This document shows positions 2,872 through 55,937 of a stretch of DNA of 64,000 nt, piece after piece. The notes beneath the pieces were generated by a model. That model worked only from the letters and a program-made list of their open reading frames with translations, had not been told where the DNA came from and made no database searches. The translations under genes and the position numbers were made by a program. Every line of letters begins with the position of its first letter. Within the stretch, counting starts at the first letter, position 1. The stretch comes from Asterias amurensis (taxonomy: Eukaryota; Echinodermata; Asteroidea; Forcipulatida; Asteriidae), in NCBI RefSeq assembly GCF_032118995.1, contig NC_092656.1:9925761-9989760 (forward strand), in the 5' to 3' direction.

Positions 2872-5800
2872 TGTATTTATAGAGCGCCTTTTCCAAACGA
2901 TACAAAGCGCTAGGGATAGTGCAATCAAAAACCAAAAAGAGAACAATGAATAATGAGCAAAAATACATTAAGTGACAGAATCAAAAACACATTACCGGTT
3001 AAACAGAAATTGCGTAGTTTTCTTTTAACTTTGCGAACTACCACGGTCGGCCATTTACGGGAGTCACAAATTTGACTCCCATAAATGGCCTACCGTGTTA
3101 GTCGACAAGGTAAAAGGAAAACCATGCAATTTTGAGGCATGTCTGTGTGGATCATTGTATACAGTATTCTGCTTTTACAACATCTTTCTACCCATCTGCA
3201 TTTTATAACGGTTAAAAACGCTTTTCAAATACCAACTCGACCAATCCAAGGCAACGTGTTCCTTTAAACCCAGCCACCAGGGTGTAGTCATAAAGGTACT
3301 TGGTATGAGTGCTTGTAATCGCGTTTCATAAACAAACAAGTTTTTTAAAAAGTCATGATTTCTCACTTGATTTTGGTCGTCGACTGTCTCAGAATACTCC
3401 CTCTCGGCCTCAGGTGAAGTCTGGTCTTTCATTTCTTCAATTTGTTGCTCAAGCCCCGATACCCGATCAAGGAGGTCAAAGTTGGCACCCTCCACCTCCG
3501 CCATCTTAAAAACAAAAATAAACAATAATCATGAATAACTAAACAAGTCTGTGAAAAGAGTTTACAAAGAACTTTGCAATTCTATGTATACATACAACTT
3601 TATTAATCATTTAGAACAAAATTAACATAAATGAAACTTGGTAGCACACAAAACTTTGTACTTTCTTTGTTTTTTTCAATGGAACTTCAAATAAAGACCC
3701 AGGAGGAAATCTTCTATTCAGCAGAAAAGTTCATGGCCTTCACTCTGATTCAGACAGTACACTCCTGGCAGTTCCGAAGGTGCATTCTGACGCTGACGAT
3801 TGTGTGTTTTAAGCACAATGTCCCACGCGTTTTGAACTGTCTCCCTCATTAAATCAGTCCTGCTGTGTCACCGAAATTTTTCAAGAAAATCTGAAAACTT
3901 TCCTATTCAATGGTTGTTTGCTCAGGACCCAGGCCTGATACTTCATGGGGGGCAAGGAAGGTGATTGCCTTCATGCCCCCGGGTCATTGCCTTGGTGCCC
4001 TTGAAATGCTCCAGTAGAAAGTTACAATTTCCTCATACATGTAGGGTGCCCTTTACCGAGGAAAAATGCCTTGGTGCCCTTCACCTTTTTAAAATGAAGC
4101 ATACATGCCTGTTTGCACCAAAATGTACAAGTACCCAACGTAAAGGCCCGGTCCCACTGCAGCGATAACGATAATGATAACGACGCAAAGAGAACGCATT
4201 CCATTGGTTATTCTGCGTGGAGCAATTCGACCAATCGAATGCTTTCTCTTTGCGACGTTGTCGTTATCGTTATCGCTGCAGTTGGACCGGGCCTTTAGAG
4301 TGCCTGTTATTGTTAATATTTATAATTATTATTGACTGTCTGTACCTGCTGCTCCAGCAGCTTGGCTTGGGCCTCGGCAGTTTCAGCTTTCTGTTCAGCA
4401 TGGTGGAAGAGTTCCTTGTACTCATCAACTTGCTGCTCTAGAAGTTCAGCCTAGTTATCAAAAAAAAAGAAAACATACCATAATAGATAATATTATTTTT
4501 ATACCCTTACGCTGTATGATCAGTGCTTCCAGAGTACTATGGAGAGGGAAACCACACACGAAAACAAAGCAATTGAACATAGAAATTCTAATAGCCCCTT
4601 TTCTGGCTTGTCATGGCCGAGCGATCTAGTTCACCGCACCCAAGCTCTGGCGTTGTAAGCAGCAGGTGGTGGGTTCGAATCCAAGTCATGACACTTGTAC
4701 CCTTGACTTGAGCAAGGCACTGTAGCAAAGTTGATTTAAAAAAAAGTTGGAAAGGTAGTGCAAGCTGCTCTACCAACCAGGCTCCTAGTGGATGATACCC
4801 ATGCCTACATCCTTACGAACTGTGAAGGGGGTAAACCAGTCTCAACCCGATGAGTAGGTTGTACCGAGCCCCTGGTGACAGTTGATTTGGGTTGATAGCA
4901 CAAATCAGTGAATGTAGCTCTCACCTTGAAGTGGCTGTCTGGCTTTGTGAGATGGGCAATACCTCATAACCCCCCCACCCCCTCCCCCCGCAAAAAAAAA
5001 AAAAAACAGATTTACAAAATCTTAACCTTCTTCCTGATATGGTCATAGAGGATGGAGACCAGATGTTTACAATTATCGCAACAAAGGGTACAGCCTGAAA
5101 AAAATTGTTTTTCTGCAAAACTCAACTTTGAAGGAGTACTGCTACTGGTGGTGGTAGGCCTACCTTTGTTTTACTTGTGTTTAGATTCTCAACGATGCAC
5201 CCATCAGAATTAGACCTTGTCCAACTGTGGAGGTGAAAGAGTTTATTTTGAATGTTAGCACAAAACTTCAAAAATCAAACTAAAAAGCAATTGTTTTGCT
5301 AATGCCAAATACATCTTTACGACTTTAGCAGTTTCAAATTAATATCACCACACTGACAAAAAGAGGCTTGCATCAAAGAATTAAATTAAAAGACTTAGTT
5401 AGAAACATTTAATTAATTTAGAGCGCTAAATAAAATTAAACAAAACAATTGTTTTGCATTCGGATTTTAAATTTGTATACAATACAATCCATGATTTCCC
5501 ACAGCCAACATTCTAGTAGTAGTAACTCTGTCATGTCCTGTTTACGAAATACAACATCTTTCTATTATTATATACAAAATTTAAATTACTATTCTTTCTA
5601 TTTATTAACGTGGTGAATATTTTTGTGTTAATTAAAATTAAATAAATAGGCCCTAGTTAATACTGATGATACTGAAAAATACTGATTATTAATTATTATT
5701 AATATTAAAATGCATATAATATAAATCAGAAGAGGATGCTCAAAGTTCACTGCTTACCCGAGGTTGGTTGGTAAAGATTCCCCGGGCCTCTCGCCGGCCC

Positions 5801-5924
5801 GTGCTGGTTCCTCTGAATTCCTGGCCCGATTCTTTTTCTTGCCACTCGGCGGTCTATCGTTGATGCCCTGACCTGCCTGATTTATCGTTAGTTTTTTCAC
5901 GTTCGTGCTCGCTCCATGCCCCAT
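646..5924 (-). CDS. Unrecognised coiled-coil protein with Ser-rich C-terminus, multi-exon
   Basis: I do not recognise this gene. Exons (minus strand, in order) with phases that join: 5094-5027, 4450-4346, 3504-3367, 2786-2730, 2202-2070, 1490-646 (stop). The first coding exon is probably 5924-5758; its product begins MGHGAS, which fits an N-myristoylation pattern (MGxxxS), followed by a basic stretch. A candidate exon at 5224-5164 has good splice sites, but its phase does not join to 5094, so the 5' structure is unsettled. The 5094-5027 exon encodes a Cys-rich segment (CTLCCDNC) that could bind zinc. The next four exons encode heptad-rich coiled coil (for example AELLEQQVDEYKEL). The 282-codon last exon is acidic, then very rich in Ser, Arg and Gly, and ends MMEDIIGNS. 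A cytoskeletal or scaffold role is only a guess. Introns carry a B-family MITE (3010-3267) and a SINE (4608-4960). Confidence 0.7.
2830..2925 (+). repeat. (AAT)n microsatellite attached to a SINE-like tail
   Basis: An (AAT)n run at about 2836-2870 is followed by a segment containing TAGAGCGCC and AAAGCGCTAGG. This resembles the 3' tail common in invertebrate SINE-like repeats; similar tails occur at 16500-16560 and 60765-60840. It sits in an intron of the coiled-coil gene. Confidence 0.5.
3010..3267 (-). mobile_element. B-family TTAA palindromic MITE, truncated copy
   Basis: This copy holds the central palindrome and one full arm, ending GGCAACGTGTTCCTTTAA. The other end is missing. See 53404-53794 for the family description. 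Confidence 0.75.
3931..4090 (+). repeat. Dispersed repeat J, copy 1
   Basis: About 160 bp are shared with 35370-35520 and 47050-47214, recognised by TGCCTTGGTGCCCTTGAAAT and a second GGTGCCCT block. This copy carries TACATGTA at 4036-4043, where the 35.4-kb copy has a plain TA. Confidence 0.6.
4143..4296. mobile_element. Short palindromic element, family C, copy 1
   Basis: An inverted repeat beginning AAAGGCCCGGTCCCACTGCA and ending with its near reverse complement, flanked by TA. The arms include the CGATAACG motif. It lies in an intron of the coiled-coil gene and is a non-autonomous DNA transposon by structure. Confidence 0.7.
4608..4960 (+). mobile_element. tRNA-derived SINE (family 1)
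   Basis: The head has a tRNA-like A box (TGGCCGAGCGATCTAG) and a perfect B box (GGTTCGAATCC) about 45 bp later, followed by a non-tRNA body of about 270 bp. Related minus-strand copies or fragments occur at 405-515, 9536-9740, 18885-19205, 25866-26700 (interrupted) and 27340-27473. It is a pol III-derived retroposon, not a tRNA gene. Confidence 0.75.
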
Positions 5925-10800: not shown

Positions 10801-10999
10801 ATAATCCCCCATTCTTCACACATTGGTATAAGGTTGAACCTAAAGATCACGAAAATAAATTACGGTAGAAAAAGGTTATTATTTTTGTTTAGAAAAAAAG
10901 ATTGATGAGTTATAGTGTATGAGTTAGATGACCCAACCACCATGCTAGAAGTGAATAGCCTCAACTCTTTTTTACTATATAAAATGTTGATTACAGACA

Positions 11000-11372
11000 G
11001 GGTGTACTTTTGGTAATTCCTCCAGGTGGTAAGGACTATTAATTTTACTTGGTAAAGAGCACTGGAGAGCTGCTGATATAATTGTTAGAAGCCATATCTT
11101 TTGAAGTAATGTAGTTTTTGAGGGAGAGGTAAATTTTTACCACAAAATTTGAATCTAAAGAAAGGCTTCAGGCATGAAGCCATTGTCAGGAAACTGACAG
11201 AACACATTCTAAGGTGTCTAACAACATGTTTTTTTTTCTTCTTTCTGTACTTCATTGCAACTTCAATGCCAAATTGGACTCAAATTTTCACAGGTCCACT
11301 ATTCTATGCATAGTGTTGGGTAACACAAAGTGAGGATACTGGTCTATAATAATTACCAACGGTATACCCTGC
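11000..11372 (+). mobile_element. A-family MITE, old degenerate copy
   Basis: Conserved blocks TTACTTGGTAAAGAGCA, AAATTTTCACAGG and AATTACCAACGGT occur in family order, but the ends are eroded. See 58549-58917 for the family. Confidence 0.55.
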
Positions 11373-12582
11373 CTGTAAGCTGGTTATTTTTGACATAATT
11401 TGATGAGCCAATGATTAAGACACATGTTGATTTGTAACACAGTTTTTTATTGCACTTTCGGATGCTTTTTATTAAACAAAGACTCACATTTTAAATGGTT
11501 CTGAGAACTGTAATATAATATCTAGCAGAAAAAAGAAATTCTTTAGACTAAAAAGTAAAAGTAAAAGAAAAACCCAAACAACTAATTGCTTTAAATATGA
11601 GGATGAACATATTGATTTCACCTAAATAATATATATTTTAACTAGGAAACAAATAAAATAAACATTCTAATAAAGCATATGCCCCAACACAGGATAGCAT
11701 AATTCTGATTGTTTCAAATTGATTTTGTTTTGGTGAGTAGTGGTGTGGAGTTTCTTAAGACAACAGACATTTCCTATAAATGTAAATAGCACATAACATG
11801 TTCGCACTAACATTTGGTTGTCAAAATGAGGGACCATCGCGCTATTTGGTATGTGGTTAGAAGCAGCATGATGCAGTGCACAACTCAATGGTGTTTTTCA
11901 ACCGATAGGGTCTGTACACATGCGGAAATGTATTTAGCATACTGTACATATTCATTGGAAGGGTCTATTGGGCAGTTTTTCCTTAAAGGGTTTTCTGTGT
12001 ACATGTTGTACCACCAGAGCGGAATTCTTCAGGAGCAAACTAGAGTGAAAATGGCAAGACCCGACCAACTGCATCTGTAAGATAGTGTGAGTTTGTAGTG
12101 ATCATGGTGATAATCAAACTGAGAACTTGCAACAAAAAGGACAACAGGTCCATGATTGCTTTCACAAAGGAAACGGTAGTTTCTACCGCAAAATAAGGGT
12201 ACTATAGATGACAATATTAATGTTAACGGAATGTCACATCTTTTACCAACAAATACACGATATTTTATGTGGAGTATAAAGGGTAACCGATGTACAAATA
12301 GTTGCATATGAAAGAGTGACTATCAAAAGGTGTAAATATTACAAGTTTATGAACGGTTTAAGGTTGTTAGAAGCAGATGACACACACTAGGGTACAACCA
12401 CTTCATCTGAAATGTATAAATTTTGGTTATGTGGCACGATTTACAAAATCATCTCTTCGATTCAAGCTCCCTAACTATATAATTTTCACTATCTGAACCT
12501 GAGAAATTATTTTGGTTATTACAACATGTCAAGGCTCTGAGCACTCTTACACAGCTAAAATAGAACTCTGTAGCTAAGCGAG

Positions 12583-40300: not shown

Positions 40301-42046
40301 CTACAGCACACCCCCTTAAGGTATTACCTTAACCAACTTGATGGGCCAGTCAAGTTGATTTAAAATCATGCCATAAAAGGGCGTGCTGTAGCGAATTACA
40401 ACCGAGCGCAGTACAATACATCAACTATCTGATGTCTCGGGTCAAAACCACCAGCCTAACATTGCTAGCTGGAGAGCAACCATTCTATCTTTCCACTACG
40501 ATCACTGACATCTTGGGCTAAGACTAAAACTTATCAGCCTTAAAGTGCTAGCAGGAGAGCAACCCATTCTATCTTTCAACTTCGATCACTGACGTCTTGG
40601 TCCAAGACTACCACTTATCAGCCTGAAAGTGCTACAAAGAGAGCGCAACCATTCCATCTTTCTACTTCGATCGCTGACGTCTCGGGCCAAGACTAAAACT
40701 TATCAGAGTGAGAGTGCTACATGTAACAGTCTAGATGCAGGAAAACAACGTCTCTCCACTTATCTTAAATATTGATAATAACGGTAAACAGGATATGTGA
40801 GTCAATGCACAAATAATTCACATAACTCAGACATCTTACACACGACCGTAACAGTGACAAGGGGCTGCCAACTGAGCATGGCAGTGACCTCGTTGCTATG
40901 GCTACCTACCTCCTTTAACCTCTCCATTGGTGCAGATGGCTGACATGGACAGGGTTGTGAGTACAGTCACCACTGTTGCCATCAAAACAATCAGAATGGA
41001 GAATCCTAAAGAAGGGGGGAAAAACAAATTATTATAATTTATTTTGGATTTATTCTTTATCCTCGATGCAAATTTAACACATCCTTGTGGTACCCATCTG
41101 CCAAAACATAGGATTCGAACTGCCTCTAGCTATGGGCAATCTCAGTAGTCTAGTTGGTACATGTATGACATTGCTCTAGAATTGCACCAGAGTAATGCCT
41201 GTGATATTTTGTTCACAGGACTCGGGGAAAGTATACAGTGATAACACACATCGGTGTATGGGTAAATCAATTCTTTATCCCCGATGCATTTTTAACATCT
41301 ATTTAATAATTACAACATGAACATCTCCAGAATAAAGCCCAGTTCATAATAATTTTGGTGACATAACAATCACTACGTACGTGTTCCCCTTCCAATTGTG
41401 ATGCAAGAAAATTTGTTCTGCACAAAGCTTTCACGGAAAGTATGAACCGGGCTTTACTTATCATCTCATTTAATTTTTCTGACTATAAAAGTTTTTTTAA
41501 TTTAGGTTTTTATGCAGTTTGAGGATTGATGAATGTGACAACCTTTTAAGAAAAGCGGTATTCTTGAAACAAAAAAAACATCTTATTTTGAGAATATATT
41601 TCTTGTGTCAGTCCCTCGAATATTTCAAGAATACCATTTTTAGCAGTGTGTGTGTGTGTGTGTGTGGGTAGGTATCCACATTCAAATCAGGGACCATAAC
41701 AGAAGGGAAAATAGGTCCACGGTTGCTACATGTATCACAAAGGAAATCATTGTGGTCCCTGGTTGCTATCACAAAGAGTTGAACAAAGGAGGGTCCCCGA
41801 TTGCAGGTGTTTACACACTTGCGTGTGTGTGTGTGTGTGTGTAGGGGGGGGGGGGCTGGGTTTTCTCTCGTTTTGGCACCTGGAACCTCCTAGACATTAT
41901 CATTCCAGAGATTTACAGACTCTGTGCACCACCAAAAATACAGAGTTTTTCAGGTTTTGACACGATGATCTAGGGTTCTATTGGTGACTGCTATATTTTT
42001 CGAGAAAAAACAAGAACATTTGAATACTCAAGGAGATCCTGAACTC

Positions 42047-42077
<31 letters not shown>

Positions 42078-45000
42078 GGTGGAAGTTGACAGGGAATGTA
42101 CATTACCTATTCCAGCTTGCCCAACAATCCATGACATTCGAAGGAACAACATCACACCCCAGATGTTCAGGAGACATCGTACCTGAAGAAAGAAGGAGTT
42201 ATAATCAATAACTTATTTCTTGACAAACATGTACAAAAATGTCAAATAATCTTTGTCACCTTTAGCAAAAGGAACCTGAAAAATTTGGATGTACAATGTA
42301 CAATCCGATGTATCTTAACATTTAACGAGTTGAGGTATAAATAACGGAATAAAAGGGTAGCGATGAGTTCTTACACTGCTGTTTAAAGCCGGCAGGGTCG
42401 AATTGCCATGTGATAAAGGCCCGAGCCGAAGACGAGGGCCTTTAGCGCACAGCAACGACCATGCAAGGTTTTAAACGGACGTTAAAGAAAGAGTCACTAT
42501 TCTTTTATTCCCATCATACATGCCCTTTTGTTAAAAAACGTTAACAAATACAATTACAGTTGAAAACATTACTTTAACAGTTGAAAATTTGAGGTTTGAA
42601 ATGTTTTTTTTCAATAACTTTGTGAAGAGTCTGTTGGGCGTAGGTTGTGTGTACGTGCGCGCGCTTAGAAAAAGATTACGCGCGCGCTTAGAAGTACAGT
42701 AGATTACGCGCTGTTACTAATCGCTATGAATTGTGTTCAGCGTGATAATCTTGCACGCCTGACACGCGGAAACCAGCCGGTTGTAAACACTGGTCATTAT
42801 CAACCATTCAAACACCCCCACGTGATGCGCTCTCCACCAATAGGAGTAGAGAAACTGTCAGGGGTATATGAATATATAATCAGTTTTGGGTTACACCATC
42901 CACTTTTAGGTAGATTCTTCTTAAGAACTTTTCTTGCTATTATTGCAGTGGAGCAGACTTTTAATAGGACGACTACGCACTTAGTCATGTTAGTTTTTAA
43001 AACGTTAGATTACATGTAAGTACGTACATGTTGTACATGTACAACTGTACATGTTACTTGTACACTACTTAGGGAGATGTATCATGTAGGAAATCCGCTG
43101 GGACTTCTGTAATGTACTTTTGCTGAGTGGATGAAGGGGACTTCTCATTAACTTCAAAGACTTCCTGTATTCTTATGACAGGCTCATTAGGGTAGCCAAA
43201 CGTTAAAACAAATTATTATCTCTCTTCAATCTCCAAGGCAGTGAGTTTAATAATGAGAAGTCCCCTTGAACTGATTCACTCAGCCAAAGATGTACAGTTG
43301 TCCCTAGCAATGTACTTTAAAACCAGGAAAGTTAGTTTTTCTTCAGAACTGTTTGTCAATGTTTGTACAGTGTGGTGTAGTGGCCTACATAACATGTGTA
43401 TATCTCCAAAATTCTAATATCTGCTACACGTCATGCATACTACAGTATGTTAAAATGAAAAGCAAGACAGTTCTCAAAAACAACAACATAAATTAATTAT
43501 GGTGTAACCATGGTTACTGCAACCTAGACATTCTTAGCTGACATTTTTATGTTGTACAAAATATATGTTGTACTGTACACTACAGTAAACACTAAATGTA
43601 CATGTACCTGTATTACAATTTAATGTACAATGTAAATACTAGAGAAAGAATGTTTACAAGTTAATAAAAGGTTTCACACAGGCATACATTTGTACATTAG
43701 GGAGGCTTTGTTGGCATACACACTGGTCAGCACCTGGTCACAGAAAAAATACATACCTTTAAAAGAGAGGGGAGCAAGCTAGGATTCCAAAGGTCATGAA
43801 ACTGATCTACGGTCTGCAATCTGGGCAGTGAAATGTAGTATTGGCTTTATAGACATGTTATGTTCGAGGTGAAGGTACATGTATTGCTTTACAGACGATA
43901 TTTTCATGATTGTGTTTTTACGTGTGCCCTGAAATGGTTTATTGCTTGTTATACTTTTTTTCTTGGAAATAATACATGGCCTCTCTAAAAAACCACTAAC
44001 GTATTGCACAAGTTTTAAATTACAAACTGTGAGTTTCGTCAATGTAGTGTAGGAAAATTCTATGGCAAATCTGTTTTTGTCAACATGATAAAAAGTAGGT
44101 TAAACCCACTTTTGTAAATTATGCCACCCCAACCCCTCCCCTCCAATAGATAAACAAATAAATAAAAAAACAAAAAACAAAAAACAAGCAAAACAAATGA
44201 TAACAAGGAAAAAGTTGCTATTATCTGATTATTGTTTTTTTTTATAGTTTGTTATTACATACGGTACCATTTTTTTAATAAATCTATTTTTAATATTTGT
44301 GATTAAACACCAGATTTACAAAAATACACGTACATGTAACACACACTGGATAGATGTGGTAGATGAATCACAGTACACCTACATATTTGTATTTTACACC
44401 ACGTGTGTCGTTTACGTGTTTGAATAATTTTTTACTTTGCCAGTCTGGGCTTTGAACTTCAGGGGGTTATTTATCGTTTCTTAGTTGTGGCAGGTATTTT
44501 TTGTAGACTACATACGTACATGTCACTTAAATTAAAACAAACATGTGAGGGATATATGGTTAGGCCTAATGGAGCCCGGATCACGCTTCCAGGGAATGTG
44601 GATAAGATCCAAATAATGACATCACGACTCTGTTTTCACGCTGTGAGTAATTCACAAGAGTTGAGCTCAACGGCACTGCGATTTATTCAGAGCAAATTTG
44701 TGACGTCAATGTTCCCTTCCCTTTCACACTCGCAGGAAGCATGGAACAGGCTTTACTCCAAAAGTCAATGACCTTTAAGGCAGTGGACCCTATTGGTAGT
44801 TACTCAAAATAATTATTAGCATATAAACCTTACTTGGTGACGAGTAATGGGGAGAAGTTGATGGTCTAAAACATTGTGAGAAATGGCTCTCTCTGAAGTG
44901 CCATACGTACATGTAGTTCTCGAGAAAGAAGCAATTTTCCATTTCGAGACCTCAGATTTAGAATTTGAAGTCTCGAAATCAACCATAACGCACACAAGCT

Positions 45001-48000
45001 TTGTGTGACAAGGATGTTTTTCCTTTCATTATTATCTCGCACAACTTCGACGACCAATGGAGCTAAAATTTTCCAAGGTTTGTTATTTCATGCATGTACA
45101 CGTTGAGATACACTAAGTGAGAACACTAGTCTTTGACAATTACCAGTAGTGTCAAGGGTCTTTAAAAACTTTGAGGCAAGAAGCACTTCGGCTGTTGATA
45201 TTGCATTTTGAGAATTGATTCCCTTCAAAGAAATGTGGTTTAGACAGTAGGGAGAGGGATTACCAAAAGAATTTAAATGTGAGAAATACAATGTACATGA
45301 TGATGTAAATTGCACAAAACGTTTGATCAGTAGTGCATCCAATCGCGTAATTTTCTTCCTGCGTGGAAATTATTGGGCACCAGATTTGCGGCAGTTCTTA
45401 TTTCAAAATCCCAGCCACCTTTTGGAATGAAATCTCCAAAAGTTAATTGCATTATATTTTAGGATAAAAAGATACCAAAGGTACATTCCCTTTAAGAATT
45501 AAATAGAAAACATCATCATACAATAGCGCTTTTTCTAAGGTTGCAAAGTGCCCTGTTTTTGCTGTGAACAATTCGCAAGAGTTGAGCACAGCTTAAACTT
45601 AAAGGATTTGGGTACTTTTTCAAAATGTCCATAGATTTACATTAAACTTTACAGGGTTTGAAGATAATGATACATGTAGTGGAAAGCTTCCTTTCAAATA
45701 TTACTAACTGAGGTGCTGTAGTTTTGTGACAAATGAGTAAAACAATGCAATGAAAATACGTTTGTAAATGCTTAAAATAAATTTGGTTGCATGAGACATA
45801 AATTATTTCATTACATTTTTTTACGCATCACACAAAAACTACAGCACCTCAGCACGTAATATTTTCAGGGAAGCTTTCTACTATCACTGTGTAAGTTAAG
45901 TGTAAATCTGTGAACATTGTGTTGTTGTCCTACAAAAAGTACGTATAAAGCCACACACCCTTTAAAGGGACACAATTTGAAGGGGCACAGGAGTCAAGAC
46001 CTGGGCCCAATTTCATAGAGCTCAGTAAAATCAGACAACCGGCCAAGACTCCACTCAATTGTTATGCCAAGTAAACAACAGCTAAATACCAGTCACAAGC
46101 AATGTATGTATGGCATGACATTTTTGCCAGTAACATGTGAAAAATAAGCGAGCTATTTTCATGCTTAAGCAATTTATGAAATTGGCCCCAGAAAACCATT
46201 CAACACAACTTTACATTCTGAATGAGTTCAATTATTATGCTCAGCTAATTCTTACCAGAACTCCTTTGATCCATCCGAATTTAAGAGCATCACTGCCTCC
46301 TGCTGCAGCCATTTCTCCTTCCTCCATATTAATCGAGTCCATGGGTGTATCTGCAGACTGGGCCGCCTTGGTCTGTGAAGGGCATGCATCAAAACGAATT
46401 ATAAAAACCATTGTAAAACTTACAAAAAATACTGACTCAGTGTGGTTCAGATTCATTTTTGGCTTTCAATAAATTGCCATGCTTTGACATTTTACAATGT
46501 ACGATACAGTCTCGGCTCTTATTTAAACAGGCCCAATATTAAACTTTTAAGTTTAAAAACAACTGATTTTAACTAAATCGATTATTGTACAATTATTGTG
46601 TAAAAAAAAATAAAAATACAAATAAAACTAAGTACGTAAGAATTTTGCCAAGTTCCCTGTAAAGTGAAAGGCGCTTCATGGCAAATTAGAGCAATTTTGG
46701 TTTGTTTTCCTGACCATACGCATTGATGGATTCAGACAAGTTTGCCATCATTGTACACACTCAAATTTCACAAAAAATGCCTCGCAATTGCATCATCACA
46801 TTACATAGTAGGCCTTCATGAATATCCGAAAGCGACAGTTCTGTTTAATTTGATTACGAGACCAGAACAAAAATTAATCAATCAGCATTTTCTTGAACTC
46901 AATGATGCAAATTTCATCAGGAAAAGCAGATTAACAATAAATTCCAGAGTTTCCCTTGGTGTAATATGAGTAGGCTGACTTTGCCTTCGGAAAAGTCAAC
47001 TTCCATTACATTCTGGGAGCTAACCTTGACTGTCCGCCAGTAAACAACGGGCCCTGATACTTCATGGAGGTAATGAAGGCGACTGCCTCAATGCCCCCTT
47101 GTCATTGGCGTGTGGTGCCCTTGAAATGCTGTGAACATTTTTTGCAATTTCCTCATCTATTGTACATGTACCTGGTTCCCTTTACCACGGAGAAAATGCC
47201 TTAGTGACCTTGCCCTTGTATACTTTTTGTAGGGAAAAAAACAGTGTCCACAGTTTTACACTAAACTGACACAGTTGGAAGATAATGACAGTAGAAAGCT
47301 TCCCTGAAAATATTACGTACTGAGGTGCTGTAGTTTTGGGGAAATGAGTAAAACGAAAATAATTTTCGTCTCATGAGACAAAAATTATTTCAAGGATAAT
47401 ACAAACATATTTTCATGACATTGTTTTACTAATTTCTCAAAAACTACAGCACCCCAGTAAGTAATTTGAAGGGAAACTTTCCACTCCCATTACCTTCAAA
47501 CCCTGTAAGTTTAATGTAAATTCATGGACATTTTGAAAAAGTAGCCAAATCCTTTAAAGGCAGTGGACACTATTGGTAATTACTCAAAACAATTATTAGC
47601 ATAAATATAACTTTACTTGGTAAGGAGTAATAGGGAGAGGTTGATAGTATAAAACATTGTGAGAAACAGCTCCCTCTGAAGTGACATAGTTTTCGAGAAA
47701 GAAGTATTTTTCCACATGTTTGATTTTGAGACCTCAAGTTTAGAATTTGAGGTCTCGAAATCAACCATCTAAAAGCACACAACTTTGTGTGACCAGGGTG
47801 TTTTCTTTCAATATCTCGCAACTTCGACCACCGATTGAGCTCAAATTTTCACAGGTTTGTTATTTTAATCATGTTGAGATACACCAAGTGAGAAGACTGG
47901 TCTTTGAAAATTACCAATAGTGTCCACTGTCTTTAAGAAAGAAAGAAGCATGGAGACCTGAAACAATGATATAGGGATTGCAAAGAGCATAGTGCTTTTA

Positions 48001-48637
48001 AAAATAAAAACATGCATGTTGAGCTGTTCTGGTATTGTTATCATATTTCTCGGCCTGTAAACTATTTTTCAACAAGCCCTTTGTCCTGTCATTGTCAAAT
48101 TGTGTTTTTTTCTTTTTAAATTCGAGCCCTGTACATGTCAGGTTGTAGTATGGTGGGCAGAAGCCTTAAAGTTTAAATTGTAAACATGTTTACCTTCGGT
48201 TCATGAAGCTCATAAAGCGTTGGACGCGTCTTCCCCGTTGCCATCAAAGAAAACCGATTTCTGTAATGATCCAGATTGGGTACCGCCTCAATGGTGTGTC
48301 CAAAAGAGTTAGCGGCCGTCACATGATCCAAAGTTTCGTCCGTACTATCCTGTCGGCCGGGACTCAGCGATTCTCTACCCTTCTCCCCATTTCGCTTCCC
48401 CGGTTCCTTCTCAGTGATGAGCTTGACATGGAAGCGTCCATGTTTTTTCTTGGCCGGGGACTGCTTAAAGGATCCTTTTCTAGGGCCCCGGCCGTCCTCC
48501 ATGAGAGATTTATCCATGTTCTTGGAGTTGTTTACTTCAGCAGCGTTCGGCAAGGCACTGACAGCTTCACTCTCTGGGCCCATAAGGGGACTGCTGACCA
48601 CCTGTGCCCCATCATCACACGACTCTGAGTCACTCAT
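16315..48637 (-). CDS. SLC12A2: Na-K-2Cl cotransporter of the SLC12A1/2/3 group
   Basis: Electroneutral cation-chloride cotransporter of the plasma membrane. Exons: 48637-48194, 46372-46256, 42182-42107, 41005-40910, 39420-39281, 38364-38254, 34647-34536, 32016-31889, 31188-30988, 29875-29768, 29107-28984, 28064-27963, 26880-26725, 24938-24839, 24212-24101, 23254-23120, 22621-22515, 21785-21679, (cassette 20676-20626), 18669-18442, 17900-17584, 17057-16990, 16450-16315. Phases join throughout: 1,074 residues, or 1,091 with the cassette. The N-terminus has a SPAK/OSR1 docking motif (GRFHVKLI, 67-74) and a conserved phospho-acceptor region ([10 protein letters not shown], 111-120). The 12-helix core is complete. 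Tyr278 (AVAMYVVGF) is the K+-site Tyr of NKCCs, which is His in NCC; Ser497-Ser498 ([10 protein letters not shown]) fit the Na+ site. NFT at about 455 is a likely glycosylation site in the TM7-8 loop. The C-terminus ends [15 protein letters not shown], close to human. The symbol stands for the invertebrate NKCC clade, not a strict orthologue. Confidence 0.95.
17336..17506. mobile_element. Short palindromic element I, copy 1
   Basis: About 170 bp, beginning near AGACGTTATGCACATGATG and ending near CATCAATACATAAGGTCT. The partner copy at 27776-27949 has better-preserved termini. Just upstream, 17171-17330 is another inverted repeat, starting GGGGCCGATTTCACAAAG and ending in its near complement. 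Confidence 0.6.
17544..17558 (+). repeat. Poly-G run (poly-C in the SLC12A transcript)
   Basis: Fifteen G on the plus strand. In the sense of the SLC12A gene this is a C tract 26-40 nt downstream of the exon 17900-17584 donor. Confidence 0.9.
18145..18379 (+). mobile_element. B-family MITE, truncated copy in an SLC12A intron
   Basis: Retains the centre and the right arm ending in TTAA at 18376-18379. The left arm is mostly gone. Confidence 0.7.
18885..19205 (-). mobile_element. SINE family 1, reverse copy
   Basis: The body matches the 25866-26700 copy closely (GGCCACTTCAAGGTGATGCT and following). The tRNA-like head is at about 19150-19205. It lies in an SLC12A intron. Confidence 0.7.
19574..19756. 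mobile_element. Short palindromic element, family C, copy 2
   Basis: The arms carry AAGTCACACAGGCCCC and the complement GGGGCCTGTGTGACTT. The interior includes GCACGCCCTCGATTGGTTGA in inverted repeat. Confidence 0.75.
19985..20515 (-). repeat. Intronic tandem repeat, units of about 100-125 bp
   Basis: A block containing GACAGTAGGAGGGTTAACTG recurs near 20041, 20143, 20267, 20381 and 20504, each with a CATTCAAAACCACAG-type block. Five irregular copies lie about 110 bp downstream, in the transcript sense, of the cassette exon. Copies differ by TACATGTA gains (20077-20084 against plain TA at 20208-20209). Confidence 0.75.
20626..20676 (-). CDS. SLC12A2: Candidate 51-nt cassette exon of the SLC12A gene
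   Basis: A pyrimidine-rich acceptor ending AACTCAG and a donor reading ATTG|GTAAGG bound a 51-nt open segment. It enters and leaves in the same phase as its neighbours, so it can be included or skipped. It would add [17 protein letters not shown] to the C-terminal cytoplasmic domain. Joined to the next exon it makes VRFKIEKV, which fits the SPAK/OSR1 docking consensus [SGV]RFx[VI]xx[VITS]. In vertebrate NKCC1 a 16-residue exon at about this place in the protein is alternatively spliced. Use of this exon is inferred from phase and splice signals only. Confidence 0.6.
20961..21146. mobile_element. Short palindromic element, family C, copy 3
   Basis: Begins AAAGGCCGAGTCACACTGCA and ends near CTGCAGTGGGACCGGGCCTT. 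The interior has ACGACGCAAAGAGAACGC in inverted repeat. Confidence 0.75.
22049..22380 (-). mobile_element. A-family MITE, reverse diverged copy
   Basis: Family blocks run in reverse order from GGTAATTAATTGTCAAAGAC to GAGTAATTACC. The centre is diverged. Just before it, 21888-22040 is another repeat with TCGATTTCACAAAACG and TTAGGATGAG blocks. Confidence 0.65.
22640..22790 (+). mobile_element. F-family TTAA MITE fragment
   Basis: Matches the 45599-45967 copy over GGGTTTGGGTACTTTTT and GCGCTGTAGTTTTTGAGAAA. Only one arm is present, next to a family 2 SINE. Confidence 0.55.
22790..22970 (+). mobile_element. SINE family 2, tRNA-like head present
   Basis: Contains GGTAATCTAGTTGGTAAGAC and a perfect B box (GGTTCGAATCCCAC), followed by the family 3' part with TTTTTTTCACAGAACTCGAG. 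Confidence 0.7.
23334..23452. mobile_element. Small palindromic element with 17-bp arms
   Basis: Termini GCACGCTGTGACGGGG and CCCCTGTCACAGCGTGC are inverted repeats. The GC-rich interior includes GAGGCGAAGCCGAGGGT. Intronic in SLC12A. Confidence 0.65.
24238..24385 (-). mobile_element. SINE family 2, reverse copy
   Basis: On the minus strand it carries the B box GGTTCGAATCCCACC and the following CACAGGACTCGGGAAAGT block. The A-box side is missing beyond about 24385. Confidence 0.65.
25866..26700 (-). mobile_element. SINE family 1 split by an A-family MITE
   Basis: The SINE body runs 25866-26201 and resumes at 26590-26700 with its tRNA-like head. The A-family MITE fills the gap exactly, with TTAA at both junctions. 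Two sub-blocks near 25960 and 26050 are internal repeats of each other. Confidence 0.75.
26202..26589 (+). mobile_element. A-family MITE inserted in a SINE
   Basis: Full-length, with TTAA at 26202-26205 and 26586-26589. The SINE sequence continues on both sides, so the MITE is the younger insertion. Confidence 0.85.
26940..27152 (+). mobile_element. tRNA-derived SINE (family 2), best copy
   Basis: The core is GGTAGTCTAGTTGGTAAGAC followed by GTCGTGGGTTCGAATCCCAC, that is, A-like and perfect B boxes at tRNA spacing. It is preceded by a CCCCGATGCAAATTTAACAC block and followed by the CACAGG...AAAGTAC tail. Other copies: 12793, 22790, 24238, 41045, 53990. Confidence 0.75.
27485..27775 (-). mobile_element. 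SINE family 3, reverse copy
   Basis: The tRNA-like head, minus strand GTGGCCTAGCGGTTAAGAGC, lies at 27756-27775. The body has AGAAGGGGTTCGCCCCGG-like and ACATTAAGTCATTGGTCCCG-like blocks shared with 14070-14300. It abuts element I. Confidence 0.7.
27776..27949. mobile_element. Short palindromic element I, copy 2
   Basis: Termini AGACCTTATGCACATGACAT and ATGACGTCAATGCATAAGGT plus CT are inverted repeats. The interior contains CAGTAGGGCGCCCTCACCTA, as in copy 1. Confidence 0.7.
28485..29020 (-). repeat. Tandem duplication of the 3' end of an SLC12A exon with flanking intron
   Basis: The segment 28805-29020 holds the end of the exon 29107-28984 (reading [11 protein letters not shown] at the donor) and about 180 bp of intron. 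A diverged copy at 28485-28735 repeats it, including a pseudo-exon end reading [11 protein letters not shown] with a GT at the matching donor position, and intron blocks TATGTTGGAAACACTTG and ATAGAGGCTCCAG. The copy has no acceptor side, so it is probably not used. Confidence 0.8.
29181..29495. mobile_element. Palindromic element H, uninterrupted copy
   Basis: Termini TAACACCCGTTTCAGA and TCTGAACAGGGTGTTA. Interior blocks GGAGCGCCTTGGTTTCAGAA and ATTTAATTGGGTCGACC match 12583-12985. Confidence 0.7.
30028..30365 (+). mobile_element. A-family MITE lacking its left end
   Basis: Starts inside the family at AATAAAACCTTACTTGG and runs to the right TTTAA end. Confidence 0.75.
31439..31703. mobile_element. 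Palindromic element with AGAACTAGAG termini
   Basis: Ends AGAACTAGAGGACGCACTGG and CCAGTGCGCCCTCTAGTTCT are near-perfect inverted repeats, with TATATAAA just outside each end. The GC-rich interior has two GGCCATTTT blocks. Intronic in SLC12A. Confidence 0.65.
33202..33593 (-). mobile_element. A-family MITE, reverse copy
   Basis: Full-length, ending in TTAA at about 33590-33593. It carries two TACATGTA gains relative to other copies, at 33323-33330 and 33445-33452. Confidence 0.8.
33740..34092 (+). mobile_element. A-family MITE abutting a B-family MITE
   Basis: The left end is truncated. The right end terminates at TTAA 34089-34092, which is also the first TTAA of the B-family element that follows. 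Confidence 0.8.
34089..34479 (+). mobile_element. B-family MITE sharing a TTAA with an A-family MITE
   Basis: Full palindrome from TTAA 34089-34092 to TTAA 34476-34479. It ends 57 bp downstream (transcript sense) of the SLC12A exon 34647-34536. Confidence 0.85.
35370..35520 (+). repeat. Dispersed repeat J, copy 2
   Basis: Matches 3931-4090, but has CTCATAGGATGCCC where that copy has a TACATGTA. Confidence 0.6.
36003..36385 (-). mobile_element. G-family palindromic MITE, copy 1
   Basis: Runs from TTAAAGCC near 36000 to ATGGCTTTA near 36385. A reverse copy occurs at 63443-63810. Internal blocks (GCTCAAATTTTCACAGG-like) suggest distant kinship with family A. TACATGTA at 36084-36091 is absent from the other copy. 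Confidence 0.65.
36637..36873. mobile_element. Palindromic element E, short copy
   Basis: Termini GGGTGCGTTCG and CGAACGCACCC, with ATA on both outer sides. The GC-rich interior has GGGGGCTGGCCCC and CAGGGGCTCACCC in inverted pairs. Poly-G runs follow at about 36883 and 36997. Confidence 0.7.
37263..37540 (+). mobile_element. A-family MITE, diverged right half
   Basis: A clear left end (AAAGGCAGTGGACACTATTG) and GAGAAACGGTTCCCTCTGAA; the right half is eroded. Another repeat with CTTAGGATTAATC follows at about 37555-37650. Confidence 0.7.
38633..38865 (+). mobile_element. LINE ORF2 C-terminal remnant
   Basis: The frame reads [23 protein letters not shown], then a diverged stretch and [11 protein letters not shown] before a stop. 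This resembles the tail of non-LTR retrotransposon reverse-transcriptase ORFs (R-LRxAGH ... MxDRxxWRxR). It is a 5'-truncated fragment in an SLC12A intron, antisense to the gene. A 24-bp identical piece of the start recurs at 38022-38045. Confidence 0.65.
39673..40044 (-). mobile_element. A-family MITE, reverse copy
   Basis: TTAA at 39673-39676; the far end GTGTCCACTGTCTCTAA has lost one TTAA base pattern. The central palindrome (GAGACCTCAAGTTTTAAATC) is intact. Confidence 0.8.
40428..40735 (-). repeat. Intronic minisatellite, about 85-bp unit, 3-4 copies
   Basis: CTGACGTCTTGGGCCAAGAC or a variant recurs near 40430, 40505, 40589 and 40674, each followed by ACTTATCAGCCT and a GAGAGCAACCATTC block. 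It ends about 175 bp before SLC12A exon 41005-40910. Confidence 0.75.
41045..41305 (+). mobile_element. SINE family 2 with inserted TACATGTA
   Basis: The family sequence CTAGTTGGTAAGACA is changed to CTAGTTGGTACATGTATGACA here (41158-41165). The block TTATCCCCGATGCA occurs at both ends, as if a partial second unit follows. Confidence 0.65.
41647..41853 (+). repeat. Two (GT)n runs with a G run
   Basis: (TG)n at about 41647-41667 and 41822-41842, the second followed by a run of about ten G. Between them is a short duplicated block (GGTTGCTA...ATCACAAAG). Confidence 0.75.
42047..42075 (+). repeat. Poly-G run of 29 (poly-C in the SLC12A transcript)
   Basis: An uninterrupted run of 29 G, lying 32-60 nt downstream of the donor of SLC12A exon 42182-42107 in the transcript sense. 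Its length is likely to vary between individuals or assemblies. Confidence 0.9.
44775..45165 (+). mobile_element. A-family MITE
   Basis: TTAA at 44775-44778 and 45162-45165. It carries TACGTACATGTA (ending 44915) where other copies have a plain TA before the GTTTTCGAG block. Confidence 0.8.
45599..45967 (+). mobile_element. F-family TTAA palindromic MITE, best copy
   Basis: Begins TTAAAGGATTTGGGTACTTT and ends near CCCTTTAAA. The arms contain GAGGTGCTGTAGTTTTGTGA and its inverted partner ACTACAGCACCTC. Related copies: 22640-22790, 47222-47557, 59571-59835. Confidence 0.75.
47050..47214 (+). repeat. Dispersed repeat J, copy 3
   Basis: Matches 3931-4090. It has TACATGTA at 47163-47170 in the same variable spot between CTCAT and TTCCCTTTACC. 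Confidence 0.6.
47222..47557 (+). mobile_element. F-family MITE abutting an A-family MITE
   Basis: The right end AAATCCTTTAA finishes on TTAA 47554-47557, which also begins the A-family copy. The central palindrome is ATTTTCGTCTCATGAGACAA. Confidence 0.75.
47554..47936 (+). mobile_element. A-family MITE sharing a TTAA with an F-family MITE
   Basis: Full-length, TTAA 47554-47557 to TTAA 47933-47936, lying about 260 bp downstream (transcript sense) of the first coding exon of SLC12A. Confidence 0.85.
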
Positions 48638-49107
48638 GCTCGTATATGTTCGTGTGACGTAGCCTTGCGCAAATGCAACTTCCTGTCACTGTTTCAGAGA
48701 TAAACATTAAGTTGCTATAGGAATGGATACAATCAGTGTAGACTCGGTTTTAGTAGACTCTAAATCCAATTCGGTTCACCGAGGGTGAACAAAATTATTT
48801 ATGATTTAGAATGTCAGATGTGGGGCCATCAAAGTGCAATCTGGGGGAAGTCTGAGCTGGGCAGCGAATTTTGCTAGTCCTAGGCGGGCTTGCCCATCAG
48901 GGCTTCGCCCATCTTGGCTACAACAATGGATACAATAGCCTACTGTTTGACGAGTCATCACTTTTAGGAAACTTCTGATAACTGAGGATGGCTTTTTTCA
49001 TGGGGGGGGGGGGTTATGATGAAACTCAGTTCAGATGCTCAGATGGAATCAAAAGTAACTAATTATGTTTTGTTTTTTACAAACTGTTATATATGACGAC
49101 TCTTAAA

Positions 49108-49282: not shown

Positions 49283-49599
49283 AAAACATGGTTTATAAAC
49301 CATGATACTTGAGGCATCTCTTAAAAACAAATCATCTTACAATGGGAAACAGTTCCATAGCGGCAATAAATATTACATTGTAAGTAAATGGAATTCCGGC
49401 TTTCTTTTCCTTATGAAAATCAATGGGGAACATTGACATAGCGGCAAGGGAACATTCGCATAGCGGCAACAAATAGACCTATTAAGTAAGATGGAATTCT
49501 GAATTGCTTTCCCTTTTTAAAAATATTGTGCATGAGGAAAATGTTCAAAAATTGCAAAAAATATGAATGAGATCGAGTTTAAACTTTCTTTCCTTTTAA

Positions 49600-50973
49600 A
49601 TGGGTGAGTTCGATTAGCTTCCCTGGGTTGATCCCGGTGTGCTCATCCAAGTGGCGATTTTTTTTTTTTTTTTTTCCAGGACGAACGTGGGCACTGATAA
49701 TTACACCACGTTCGTACTGGAAAAGTCGCCTATTTTTTTTTCAGGATCAACATGTTCTGAAAAAAAAAATATGCATCATGACGTGACCCTTTTCGTGGTG
49801 ACATAAGAGAACCTTGGGCCAGGCCCAAGTGACCCTAACCACAAGCCTACTTCTAGAAACTATACATGTAAGGCTCCCACGTGAACCTTATTACGGGTCT
49901 AATATTTTGGACCTCCTTAACGCTGAATACGTTTTTAAAATCGAAGTTGATAGGTGAAAGTTTAAAGTCACCTGGAAATAGAATTTTTTTTCTTTTAAAC
50001 ATAAGAGTATATGCTTACGACCAATAAAACAATTTTTTTAGTAATTGTTTGTCACGATTTATATGTTAAAAAAATTAATAAAGTTGTTTGGGGGCTGACT
50101 CCGCCTACCCCTTTTTTGACGTCATTCAAGGCAGACTTTGCCTGCAATGCGTATAGTAAACACAAGTGCAAAGTACATGTACGTCCAAGTCGTGAGTTGG
50201 TACATTTCAAAAAGTGTTTTTCTGCATTCAGCAGCAATACACCTCAGGTCAGCATTGCCGGAAAAGACAAAACAAATTTTTTTGTAACGTACAAACTCAC
50301 GACTTGGTCCGTACATGTACTTTGCAATTGTGTTTACTATACGCATTACAGGCAAAGTCTGCCTCGATTGACGTCACGAACAGCGCCCTCTCGGGTCGGG
50401 GTCTACTCTTAAATTTGTAAATAACATAAGAACTGATTTTTTAAAACCTTAGTTAACTGTTTATTCACATTCAACTCATCAAAACACATATATTAGTGAC
50501 AAAAGTTTGTTTTTGAAAAAATACCACTTCCAGGTGACTTTAACAACCGTTCGCCATCAATAACTAAAATTTCCTTTGTACTACACACCCAAAACTTTCC
50601 CATCACACTCTATGTAATGTACTCATAATGCTTGTATGGCCTTATTGTTTGTTGAGTTAAATTAAAAAACATCTTCAAAAATTATCTGCTCGGTACTCAC
50701 TGTTGTTTTTTCTGCCGCATCCCATATTTTTTGACCTCTCAATATAAGCGCAACGCTTTATTTTTTAGTCATTTGGTCACCAAGCTCTGTACACACGGAC
50801 ACCAGCCTACTTGTTTACCGAACTGCCGAGCCACCACCGAGTTGGAGTAAAAAGGATGTTACGCCGCGCGTGGGCATCGTGAGCAGACAGCGCTCCCGCG
50901 CAACACCCCTTCTACAAAATGGGGAGCCTTATAGAAGTAGGTCGACCCAGGGAAGCTAAACGAACGCACCCTA
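49600..50973. mobile_element. Composite palindromic element E
   Basis: The left terminus GGGTGAGTTCGATTAGCTTC and the right terminus GAAGCTAAACGAACGCACCC are inverted repeats, followed inward on both sides by a CCCTGGGT/ACCCAGGG pair. The body contains a complete TA-flanked palindrome (49965-50540). Another E starts 17 bp after its end. Confidence 0.6.
49965..50540. mobile_element. TA-flanked foldback element, about 576 bp
   Basis: Termini AAGTCACCTGGAA and TTCCAGGTGACTT are perfect inverted repeats, with TA on each outer side (49963-49964 and 50541-50542). Long inner arms pair 50118-50210 with 50283-50388 (for example GGCAGACTTTGCCTGCAATG and TACATGTACGTCCAAGTCGT). TA target and TIR suggest a Tc1/mariner-type non-autonomous element. 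Confidence 0.8.
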
Positions 50974-50989
50974 TGTCTATGAGATATTG

Positions 50990-51247
50990 GGTGCGTTCCC
51001 TCCTGTACTGGGTCTACCCAGCAGTGCTCACTCGGGTGAGCTCCTGACAAGAACTAAACAAACGACCACTCATCGCTCTCGTAGTGACGTCGCTTACCTG
51101 GGGCCAGCCCCCAAGTGGCCCACTCCACAAGCAGGGCACTGGGGGCTGACCTGGGTGGTGAGCCCTTGGAAGTGGAAGGACATCATCATCTATTCGAACG
51201 CCTCGGCAGACCGGGGATGACCCAGGGAAGCTAAATGAACGCACCCA
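50990..51247. mobile_element. Palindromic element E, short copy 2
   Basis: Termini GGGTGCGTTCC and GAACGCACCC. The interior matches 36637-36873 in reverse (GGGGCCAGCCCCCAAGTGGC). Confidence 0.7.
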
Positions 51248-51840
51248 AGAGTTCGCTAGACTAATGCTATGAGTCAAAGGTCATTTCGCTAGACTAAAGC
51301 TATGGTGAGTCAATTGGTCATGGTAGGCACAAAAGCTAGAGCTGTACTATATATAATACAGCATACTGGGACAACTATTTATACTGCATGTAGGCCTACT
51401 ACTGGGATAAAACAACCAGAGCGCCGGGCGATCATCAAACCGTTGAAACGGGTCAACTCGTACACAAGTCAACTCGTACCCAAGTCAACTCGTATCCAAA
51501 ATATTGTACCCAAGTCAACTCGTACCGTATAACGTACGTTGTATGGGAAGTTAATATAAGGGAACTGCTCCCAACCAAGTAAAAAAAACCAAAAACAAAC
51601 ATTTAAGGCCTTTTGCGTTTAATTGGCTTATTCTGTTCGTTACCTGCAACATCAAAAAAAAAAAAACGAAATCATTACAATAGCCTATAAAAAAGCCCTA
51701 ATTATTAATATTTTACTACAACAATTTTTACAATTACATATTAAATAAATTAATTAAACCACAATATTTATCAGTATGAGTTAAAAATCCCAAATTGGGT
51801 AAACATTTATTTGGGTACGAGTTGACTTGGGTACGAGTTG

Positions 51841-52112
51841 GGAAAAGTTTCCGTATGGCGCCACCACTTTTTCATTAGATATGAAATAATAGTATATATC
51901 TAAGGCCGTGTCCAAAACGGCGACTTCGGCTACAGCTACGGCTAGATCGCGCGTGTCTGCCTATTCTTCAACACTGGTGGTAGACGCGCTGTTCTAGGCG
52001 TAGCTGTAGCCGAAGTCGTCGTTTCGGACACGGCCTAATTAATTAACCTCAATGAGATATCCCTTTTGTAAAAATGAGTGAAAAAGTGGTGGCGCCATAC
52101 GGAAAGTTACCC
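51841..52112. mobile_element. Palindromic element D with 8-bp flanking duplication
   Basis: Termini GGAAAAGTTTCCGTATGGCG and CGCCATACGGAAAGTTACCC. Flanked by ACGAGTTG at 51833-51840 and 52113-52120, an 8-bp duplication of the hAT type. A copy without the central insertion is at 54861-54997. Confidence 0.75.
51902..52038. mobile_element. Palindrome inserted in the centre of element D
   Basis: Ends GGCCGTGTCC and GGACACGGCC with TAA on both sides. Inner arms pair CGACTTCGGCTACAGCTACG with its complement. The copy of D at 54861 shows the empty site. Confidence 0.8.
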
Positions 52113-52300
52113 ACGAGTTGACTTAGGTACGAGTTGACTCGGGTACGAGTTGACTTGAGTACGATTTCATTTGACTTGGGGACGAGTTGACTTGGGTGAC
52201 CCGAATTCCAAACCGTCTGCAATTAATTGTGCCTTTATTCATAAATAATAATGAGCAAAAACGTGTCATAAGACAAGCTTATCGACCACTACATACTTAC

Positions 52301-52490
52301 AGTTTTCCTCACTGTGTTGACAATATTGAGCAATTTACCGGTCAGTAAACAAGTGAAATCATGATGGTATCTCTCACTAGCTCCTGTGGGTTTGCTCCTT
52401 CGTCTGTCGATGCTCGACGATCGACCGGGCACACGGACGTCCGGTGGGTGATTATGTGTCATGGGTCATGCAAGGGCTTTTTATACAGCG
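52301..52490 (-). promoter_or_regulatory. Candidate TATA promoter and 5' untranslated exon of SLC12A
   Basis: On the minus strand a TATAAAAA box lies at 52485-52478, placing a start site near 52455. About 150 bp downstream is a strong donor, AAAACT|GTAAGTATG, ending an exon at 52301. The next acceptor-like sites in this direction (CTGAAACAG and GTGACAG) occur near 48685, just before the SLC12A initiator at 48637. The exon contains only short upstream ORFs. The linkage is inferred from signals and order. Confidence 0.4.
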
Positions 52491-53403
52491 GTGGATCATG
52501 ATGCACACACAGGCATGCATCATACCCGTTAACAATCTAGTGGTGCCGGGAATAGCGCCCTCTATCTTGGTTAGTGACAAGGATTTTGATCCATCAAACG
52601 CCAATAAATTATTACTTCTACCACTTTTATAAAGCCCATGCTTTTCACGAAGAGTCCCAAGAAATCGTTTCTTGATGAATACAATAACATTCTTCACCTT
52701 ACCCCGCCATTTAGAAAAACACAAACTTACCCGAAAATAATTATTTTTACACATTTCTGATATTTTTTTCCTGAAAAATTCGGTGGAGGTCACAGATCCC
52801 TCCCTCTTCAACACAGCAAAGAATGCCTTTTAGGGATTCAACGGTTGAGTGTGTGGTAATACTCGGCAAATTTGTGAACTTATCTTTCTGTTGTATGTTT
52901 TTTTCTTTTACTCCGACACAATTAATGATCAAAATCAAAAGTGATGTGTATGTTCTGCTTTATTTATATACATGGATAATTAACAACATTATTTTCAACA
53001 AGAGAGGAAAGGATAATAAATATTAATTTTAGATTAACAAATTCTTCTAATTACATCCATAAACCACATACATGTAGGTTAAAATTCAGTTTTAAGATAA
53101 GTTCCATAAGTGTTTCTTGTTTGCTCTAAAAGATCAGTGTGAATTTTCTTCAAGTCGTCAAGCTGTACAGTTCAAAATTATCTTTTTTTTTTCAAATGAA
53201 ATAATATGGCTGTTTATTGGAGTTTGTGACTCTGGCTACAACTGTTGCTACAACTGTTGCTAAGGATGCTGCCAGGGATACTCGTCTATCAATGCATGAA
53301 GATGGGGGCAATCCAGTCAAAGTCATAGCCGCAAATTTGGACATGGCCTATGGATTGGTAAATAATAATCTTGCAGTCTAGTGAAAGTGAACATTCTGAT
53401 TGT

Positions 53404-55856: not shown

Positions 55857-55937
<81 letters not shown>

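Follow-up and report, generated by a model that had tools for sequence, protein, structure and literature searches.

A local track of six-base gains at TA in an SLC12/NKCC-like gene of Asterias amurensis: probable excision scars of a TA-inserting element

Why does a single eight-base word, TACATGTA, recur so often in one 64-kb stretch of the genome of Asterias amurensis? The stretch (positions 9,925,761 to 9,989,760 of contig NC_092656.1, here G000:C9:9925761-9989760 and hereafter the window) belongs to an assembly of 491.5 Mb in 23 contigs. We observed that the word, at most of the sites with cleanly aligned relatives, arose as a gain of six bases at a TA, that the same gain recurs genome-wide at the same TA of repeats, that it depends on TA at the tested repeat, and that it is locally dense. 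We infer that an element produced the gains, and the gained words are probably scars of cut-and-paste excision, left by one or more TA-inserting elements that work like Tc1/mariner.

Exact copies of TACATGTA numbered 53 in the window, compared with a mean of 1.33 and a maximum of 4 in 100 dinucleotide shuffles. An earlier note, made from the letters of the window alone, had counted about 50 where one or two were expected, and had seen none in the first 4 kb or after about 53.1 kb; both statements were confirmed, with no copy before position 4036 or beyond 53,076 of the window and a low density in the 100 kb on each side. The word ranked third among the 8-mers of the window, behind poly-A and poly-G. 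Genome-wide it occurred 96,940 times, or 12.6 times per 64 kb, which places the window at about four times the density of the genome, and the genome at about nine times the dinucleotide expectation derived from the window.

To judge individual sites, we aligned each query to repeat relatives twice, once with the six bases kept and once with them removed; the pairs quoted in the earlier note and doubtful alignments were checked additionally. The judged sites are listed below by window position, with no strand assigned; where two bit scores are given, the first is with the bases removed and the second with the bases present.

4036-4043: TACATGTA, six-base gain at TA; 6-base gap against 35.47 kb, 146 and 122 bits.
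20077-20084: TACATGTA, six-base gain at TA, in one copy of a locally duplicated unit; 6-base gap relative to about 20.2 kb.
20453-20460: TACATGTA, six-base gain; 66.2 and 50.4 bits, a single relative, 71% alike, with AA in place of TA.
22351-22358: TACATGTA, six-base gain at TA in a repeat; 88.2 and 64.6 bits, TGCTAATA in 19 of 53 relatives.
25970-25977: TACATGTA, likely but weakly supported gain; 6-base gap against the adjoining block in one alignment, other relatives uninformative.
25999-26006: TACATGTA, six-base gain at TA; 6-base gap against about 26.06 kb.
33323-33330: TACATGTA, six-base gain at TA in a miniature inverted-repeat transposable element (MITE); 184 and 160 bits, empty form spanned by 59 relatives.
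33445-33452: TACATGTA, six-base gain in the same MITE as 33323; 198 and 174 bits.
36084-36091: TACATGTA, probable gain, alignment not clean; 180 and 169 bits, 5-base gap plus changed bases against 63.7 kb.
41158-41165: TACATGTA, six-base gain at TA; 103 and 80.3 bits, four relatives.
44908-44915: TACATGTA, six-base gain at TA in a MITE; 147 and 129 bits, ACGTAGTT, the empty form, in 14 of 55 relatives.
45671-45678: TACATGTA, six-base gain in a MITE; 188 and 165 bits, 23 relatives with TA or TG at the site.
50174-50319: two TACATGTA (50174 and 50312), not scars; ancestral in their own repeat family.

Ten of the 12 clean non-coding window sites were thus six-base gains and two were ancestral. 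The earlier note had proposed most of these gains. Its pairs for 4036, 20077 and 25999 showed the gaps at TA that it described, and its gains at 33323, 33445, 41158 and 44908 were supported against other relatives. For 25970 the gap reappeared in one alignment, and at 36084 the supposedly exact gain against the 63.7-kb copy proved not to be clean, a gain being probable by score. The TA is not universal among the relatives: it is absent from those of 20453, from part of those of 45671, and from those of 33445, where most carry TC (ACTTCTTT in 27 of 46) and the site's own empty form would be ACTTATTT with TA.

The idea that all 53 sites are scars was rejected, since 50174 and 50312 are ancestral and two further sites, 16406 and 26745, are coding. 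At eight sites (27255, 33596, 22384, 16757, 34880, 10327, 37229 and 47163) the relatives were too poor for judgement by eye, and the raw scores leaned variously. For most of the remaining window sites no relative was informative, and a scar origin is inferred. Among the flank sites no clean gain was found. At 64867, 105561, 130492 and 142804 the word is common to the relatives, and at the last three of these one relative each fits the empty form.

Does the same gain recur elsewhere in the genome? We surveyed inserts of 1-30 bases at one conserved TA in each of three repeat stretches, with tallies made largely by eye. The ATGTTGAGATA/CACCAAGTG repeat had 235 inserted copies, with CATGTA in 17 of the 23 six-base inserts among the 100 listed. 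The complete NNNNTA list of this repeat (n = 62) held CATG 45 times, GGCC seven times and others ten times, of which eight were one base and two were two bases away from CATG. By our own estimate, eight one-off against 45 exact inserts suggests a change of a few per cent per base since the gains. Relative to 10,863 empty copies, the CATG gain was present in 0.41%. In the GTGGACACTA/TTGGTAATT repeat, with 407 inserted copies, CATGTA made up 4 of 10 six-base inserts among the 100 listed, and CATG 11 of 28 in the complete NNNNTA list, followed by TTGG (4), a tandem duplication. All 33 inserts of the AAAGTAGAATA/CAATGATC repeat were listed, and eight of its nine six-base inserts were CATGTA. At two non-TA positions, 3 bases upstream and downstream in the ATGTTGAGATA/CACCAAGTG repeat, ACATGT was found in 0 of 10 and 0 of 9 six-base inserts; four and three of these control inserts were copies of the TA list read differently.

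Shorter and doubled products accompany the main one. With CATG counted as +6, CAT/ATG as +5 and CA/TG as +4, the ratios were 45:5:13, 8:0:1 and 11:0:1 in the ATGTTGAGATA/CACCAAGTG, AAAGTAGAATA/CAATGATC and GTGGACACTA/TTGGTAATT repeats, respectively, summing to 64:5:15 of 84. The NNNTA inserts at ATGTTGAGATA/CACCAAGTG (n = 13) comprised CAT/ATG (5), CTG (4), GGC/GCC (3) and TAA (1), and the doubled insert CATGTACATGTA appeared twice among the 100 listed. A second series at this TA consists of TAGGCCTA with TAGGCTA, TAGCCTA and TAGGGCCTA (GGCC 7, GGC/GCC 3, GG 1), and behaves like the CATG series. The four CTG inserts form a TACTGTA series at the same TA, and one CAG insert occurred at AAAGTAGAATA/CAATGATC; CTG and CAG resemble the Sleeping Beauty scar as given in PMC3878927. 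The same word thus appears at many TAs, with a duplicated terminal TA and trimmed variants. A recurrent, TA-dependent gain accompanied by shorter and doubled versions is consistent with the scars that a TA-inserting element leaves on excision.

Three further observations were made in repeats. TA duplications (TATA) are frequent at the TTGGTAATT site. Four-base CATG inserts that are not at TA occur in two flank repeats, at window coordinates -67938 and -39413. A GGCCTA gain lies in a left-flank repeat at about -15029 (L013), with 25 alignments lacking GGCCTA.

A (TACATG)n microsatellite that slips or expands could in principle raise the word as well. Rotations of the unit are elevated in the window (GTACATGT 27, ACATGTAC 25, CATGTACA 19, TGTACATG 16 and ATGTACAT 12), ATGTACAT, which is also the reversed word, occurs 41,404 times genome-wide, and the doubled form TACATGTACATGTA occurs 4,458 times. 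The rotations are raised less than TACATGTA itself. Moreover, the empty relatives carry a lone TA with no pre-existing unit to copy, and six-base inserts at shifted positions differ in kind. We regard slippage as the least probable of all explanations considered, because it cannot start from a lone TA. The two doubled forms that the earlier note had seen in the window are both present by word count, the first starting one base later than the 23303 it gave:

23304-23317: doubled form TACATGTACATGTA, no strand assigned.
31859-31872: doubled form TACATGTACATGTA, no strand assigned.

Where in the window do the sites crowd? That one gene contains the cluster had escaped the earlier note. A sequence of NKCC2 gave 21 tblastn matches with 39-89% identity and E values from 2e-20 to 0.41 (the two weakest being 0.07 and 0.41). 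The final stretch of the resulting exon map was lengthened by eye, and 48284-48643, also read by eye and carrying an RFHV motif, is the probable N-terminal or first coding exon.

16318-48690, minus strand: SLC12/NKCC-like cation-chloride cotransporter gene; 21 exon stretches at 16318-46370 plus a probable N-terminal exon.
20000-46000, no strand assigned: dense TACATGTA stretch; 41 sites in 26 kb, 1.58 per kb, coding site 26745 excluded.
16406-16413, minus strand: TACATGTA in a coding exon, not a scar; aligns to NKCC without a gap, ordinary codons.
26745-26752, minus strand: TACATGTA in a coding exon, not a scar; aligns to NKCC without a gap, ordinary codons.

The dense stretch lies entirely within the gene; within it, gain status is established for the individually aligned sites only. 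Density and shape were analysed over 264 kb, after removal of nine of the 77 sites (50174, 50312, 64867, 105561, 130492, 142804, -26677, 16406 and 26745). Density was 0.33 per kb at 4-16.3 kb, 0.27 at 16.3-20 kb and 0.37-0.38 at 46-54 kb, and beyond 4-54 kb it was 0.09 per kb overall, with 0.125 and 0.055 farther out. A second crowding was found at about 590-655 kb of contig C1, among 100 matches listed from its first 673 kb.

The concentration of sites in introns of one gene might reflect selection for TACATGTA as an intronic protein- or RNA-binding motif. Whether in repeats or in unique sequence, however, the checked sites arise by a fixed six-base insertion and not by point change, and we consider such selection very improbable. 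The sites are indifferent to repeats (15 of 44 lie in repeats, which make up 35% of the stretch), and the preference around the target TA is mild, T before TA being rarer and G commoner.

CATGTA might instead be placed at TA without a transposon, by some mutational process linked to the transcription or open chromatin of particular genes. Such a process would agree with a dense stretch inside one gene, with the finding of no gain in the mapped coding exons of that gene, and with the finding of no demonstrated donor among the scanned elements. Against it, further TA-type scar words found at that TA resemble a set of element-specific footprints, and gains also occur apart from dense clusters. 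Furthermore, the final 3.7 kb of the gene (16.3-20 kb) holds one site where about five are expected (P = 0.04), and 4-16.3 kb, outside the gene, is raised with four sites (P = 0.03). This process seems to us quite unlikely, and excision scars remain the reading that we prefer.

If the gains are excision scars, how would the joint form? Insertion of the element would duplicate TA, and its departure would leave bases of the element ends, giving the joint TA-CATG-TA. The overhang would be CAT (3 nt, as in mariner and Sleeping Beauty) or CATG (4 nt, Minos-like), with a self-complementary 3' end, such that two identical overhangs could pair via AT or CATG and be filled in, with TACATGTA as the single dominant product. 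Joining without pairing would yield TACATTA or TAATGTA as minor products. The same rule applied to GGC would predict TAGGCCTA (GGCC) with minor TAGGCTA and TAGCCTA, and GGC/GCC were indeed observed as minor products beside GGCC, matching the rule. Self-annealing CAT or CATG overhangs are in our view the likeliest joint chemistry, a choice made tentatively and at somewhat below an even chance.

The earlier note had instead derived the word from Tc1 excision with a 2-nt stagger and CA/TG ends. Its general claim of Tc1-like excision agrees with CATGTA gains at TA that recur at three repeats and are absent at two non-TA positions of one of them; its 2-nt chemistry fits less well, as +6 dominates. 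In that version, which overlaps with excision as such, elements with CA...TG ends leave 2-nt overhangs that are both kept, and the duplicated TA plus CA plus TG make up the word. Only the first two bases would count, so several CA-ended families could leave one word. CA-only and TG-only forms do exist (11 CA and two TG at ATGTTGAGATA/CACCAAGTG, one TG at each of the other two repeats), and CA-ended, TA-flanked candidates such as 92604-92944 led us to rate this version higher than initially. Nevertheless, according to PMC13148408, +4 is the typical product of Tc1 and accounts for 78% of its scars, while +4 is rare here, and 11 of the 15 +4 forms are positioned where a TACA tandem duplication yields the identical word. 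Nor are +4 words enriched in the dense stretch (TACATA 12 vs 8.4 and TATGTA 4 vs 9.1, flank-scaled), and there were no +4 gains at 4-53 kb vs six weak ones outside. On balance we consider kept 2-nt overhangs unlikely.

Among 1,290 words of the form TA-N(1-6)-TA, CATG alone stands out in the dense stretch (42 vs 3.0 flank-scaled, p = 5e-33); the runners-up were ATG (17 vs 7.0, p = 0.001) and CAATG (6 vs 1.2, p = 0.002). The excess of +5 words was judged too weak to demonstrate a 3-nt overhang, given p = 0.001 among 1,290 words and seven of eight judged cases ancestral. There was no excess of TAGGCCTA (1 vs 1.4) or of TACTGTA plus TACAGTA (5 vs 4.6). A stretch that was simply open would be expected to gather scars of all types, yet GGCC and C(A/T)G words show no such excess. 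We therefore tentatively ascribe the crowding in the SLC12 gene to a single element lineage that made short hops repeatedly. In a broader form of this proposal, the genome would be a readable transposon track in which one lineage moved repeatedly across tens of kilobases. Clusters like the present one, with about 40 scars in 26 kb, would each be the fossil trail of one element, and the word left behind would reveal the overhang (CAT giving CATG, GGC giving GGCC, CAG giving C(A/T)G). We hold this broader form to be doubtful, and more so than at first because the CA-ended candidates differ in their third base.

Can a donor be found nearby? The 264 kb were searched for terminal repeats with CA...TG ends and TA on both sides (17 pairs) and for terminal repeats with any ends, and ten pairs were re-inspected. 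The earlier note had held that the absence of a CA-ended, TA-target family would speak against it. Four TA-flanked pairs of this kind were found, which removes that objection, but as candidates only, none tied to the scar or shown to be mobile:

92604-92944 (right flank), ends CAC: 337-base inverted-repeat element; pairing 42/50 inside TA and 12/40 outside.
104245-104396, ends CAT/CAC: pairing stops near TA.
-28585 to -28336, ends CAA: pairing stops near TA.
10992-11377, ends CAG: pairing stops near TA.

Other pairs were discarded. In those at -49273, 125557, 96382, 114141 and -40839, either pairing continues past TA or a longer repeat encloses the pair; the ends of 60305-60489 are common to the repeat at -49273; 45840-47332, a pair within the cluster, has an SLC12 exon between its ends; and 105551-108491 lies inside a longer repeat. 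High-copy MITEs were likewise rejected as donors, their flanks looking like TTAA by eye and not TA. The genome has 46 DDE_3 matches, hence Tc1-type transposases exist, with no tie to the CATG scar drawn. Of three such loci that were read, two belong to one Tc1-like family with other ends, and in the third terminal repeats were not seen. Long inverted repeats starting TATAAACTGC are present at 125525-126681 (right flank), L031 and L032, and the latter two carry Tc1-like transposase reading frames.

Several results weigh against excision scars or against their reading as local trails. None of the CA-ended, TA-flanked candidates in the 264 kb scanned had a matched CAT or CATG end pair, and the Tc1-like family of L031 and L032, which begins with approximately TATAAACTGCTCACAAAAAGTAAGG, would not give CATG. 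In the C1 cluster, three sites had any relative; one scored as a gain (L025, site 7449; 103 bits with the bases removed vs 82), and two scored only with the bases present. The L034 site is a gain by score (182 vs 160 bits), and the L033 site scored higher with the bases present (91 vs 68), which might be explained if the relative that it matches best is itself an inserted copy. Two genome sites with a gain had 0 and 1 further TACATGTA within 4 kb. The +5 words, elevated in the dense stretch, were ancestral in seven of eight judged cases at 4-53 kb. Finally, the shape of the cluster does not separate the gene as a unit from hopping: log-likelihoods were -800.1 for a box of the gene, -798.1 for a Gaussian, which has two additional parameters, and -795.8 for a free box.

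The surroundings contain other features. Several reading frames resembling GABA-B receptors, perhaps a gene cluster, lie at about 84-160 kb in the right flank, and frames at about -82 kb and -25 kb in the left flank resemble a sodium/calcium exchanger and a leucine-rich repeat protein; all were read by eye. A 50-base tandem array of 8.7 copies (56108-56543) adjoins a CAAG microsatellite (55857-56031).

What would such scars offer? Excision is usually followed in reporter assays across few generations. With a uniform, recognisable scar present many thousands of times, germline excisions could be tallied on an evolutionary time scale, by site, frequency and repair. If the clusters are local-hopping trails, hop lengths would be readable directly, and the overhang rule would provide a simple, testable tie between element ends and scar.

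How does this compare with known systems? For the word TACATGTA itself, the literature search listed Phytophthora papers only, and for genome-wide or clustered excision footprints and echinoderm footprints no title or abstract start described such tracks. Stowaway/mariner MITEs are not known to leave dense local series of a single, identical scar. The footprints of these MITEs are similar in consisting of a small duplication plus a few terminal bases, as described in PMC4561436. Tc1 of Caenorhabditis elegans shares the TA target duplication and the footprint, but +6 dominates here and +4 in Tc1 (PMC13148408). Sleeping Beauty and Frog Prince share the TA target and an overhang-derived footprint, C(A/T)GTA for Sleeping Beauty, which also shows local hopping (PMC3878927). 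Here, in contrast, the CTG/CAG word is a separate, rarer type, and CATGTA is another word. The footprint of Minos carries its own terminal bases, CGAG/CTCG. It differs in this respect from CATG, and no Minos-like donor was identified in the scanned sequence. Minos nevertheless has the same TA target, and its excision leaves a 6-bp footprint, the same gain as that found here, according to PMC10992017.

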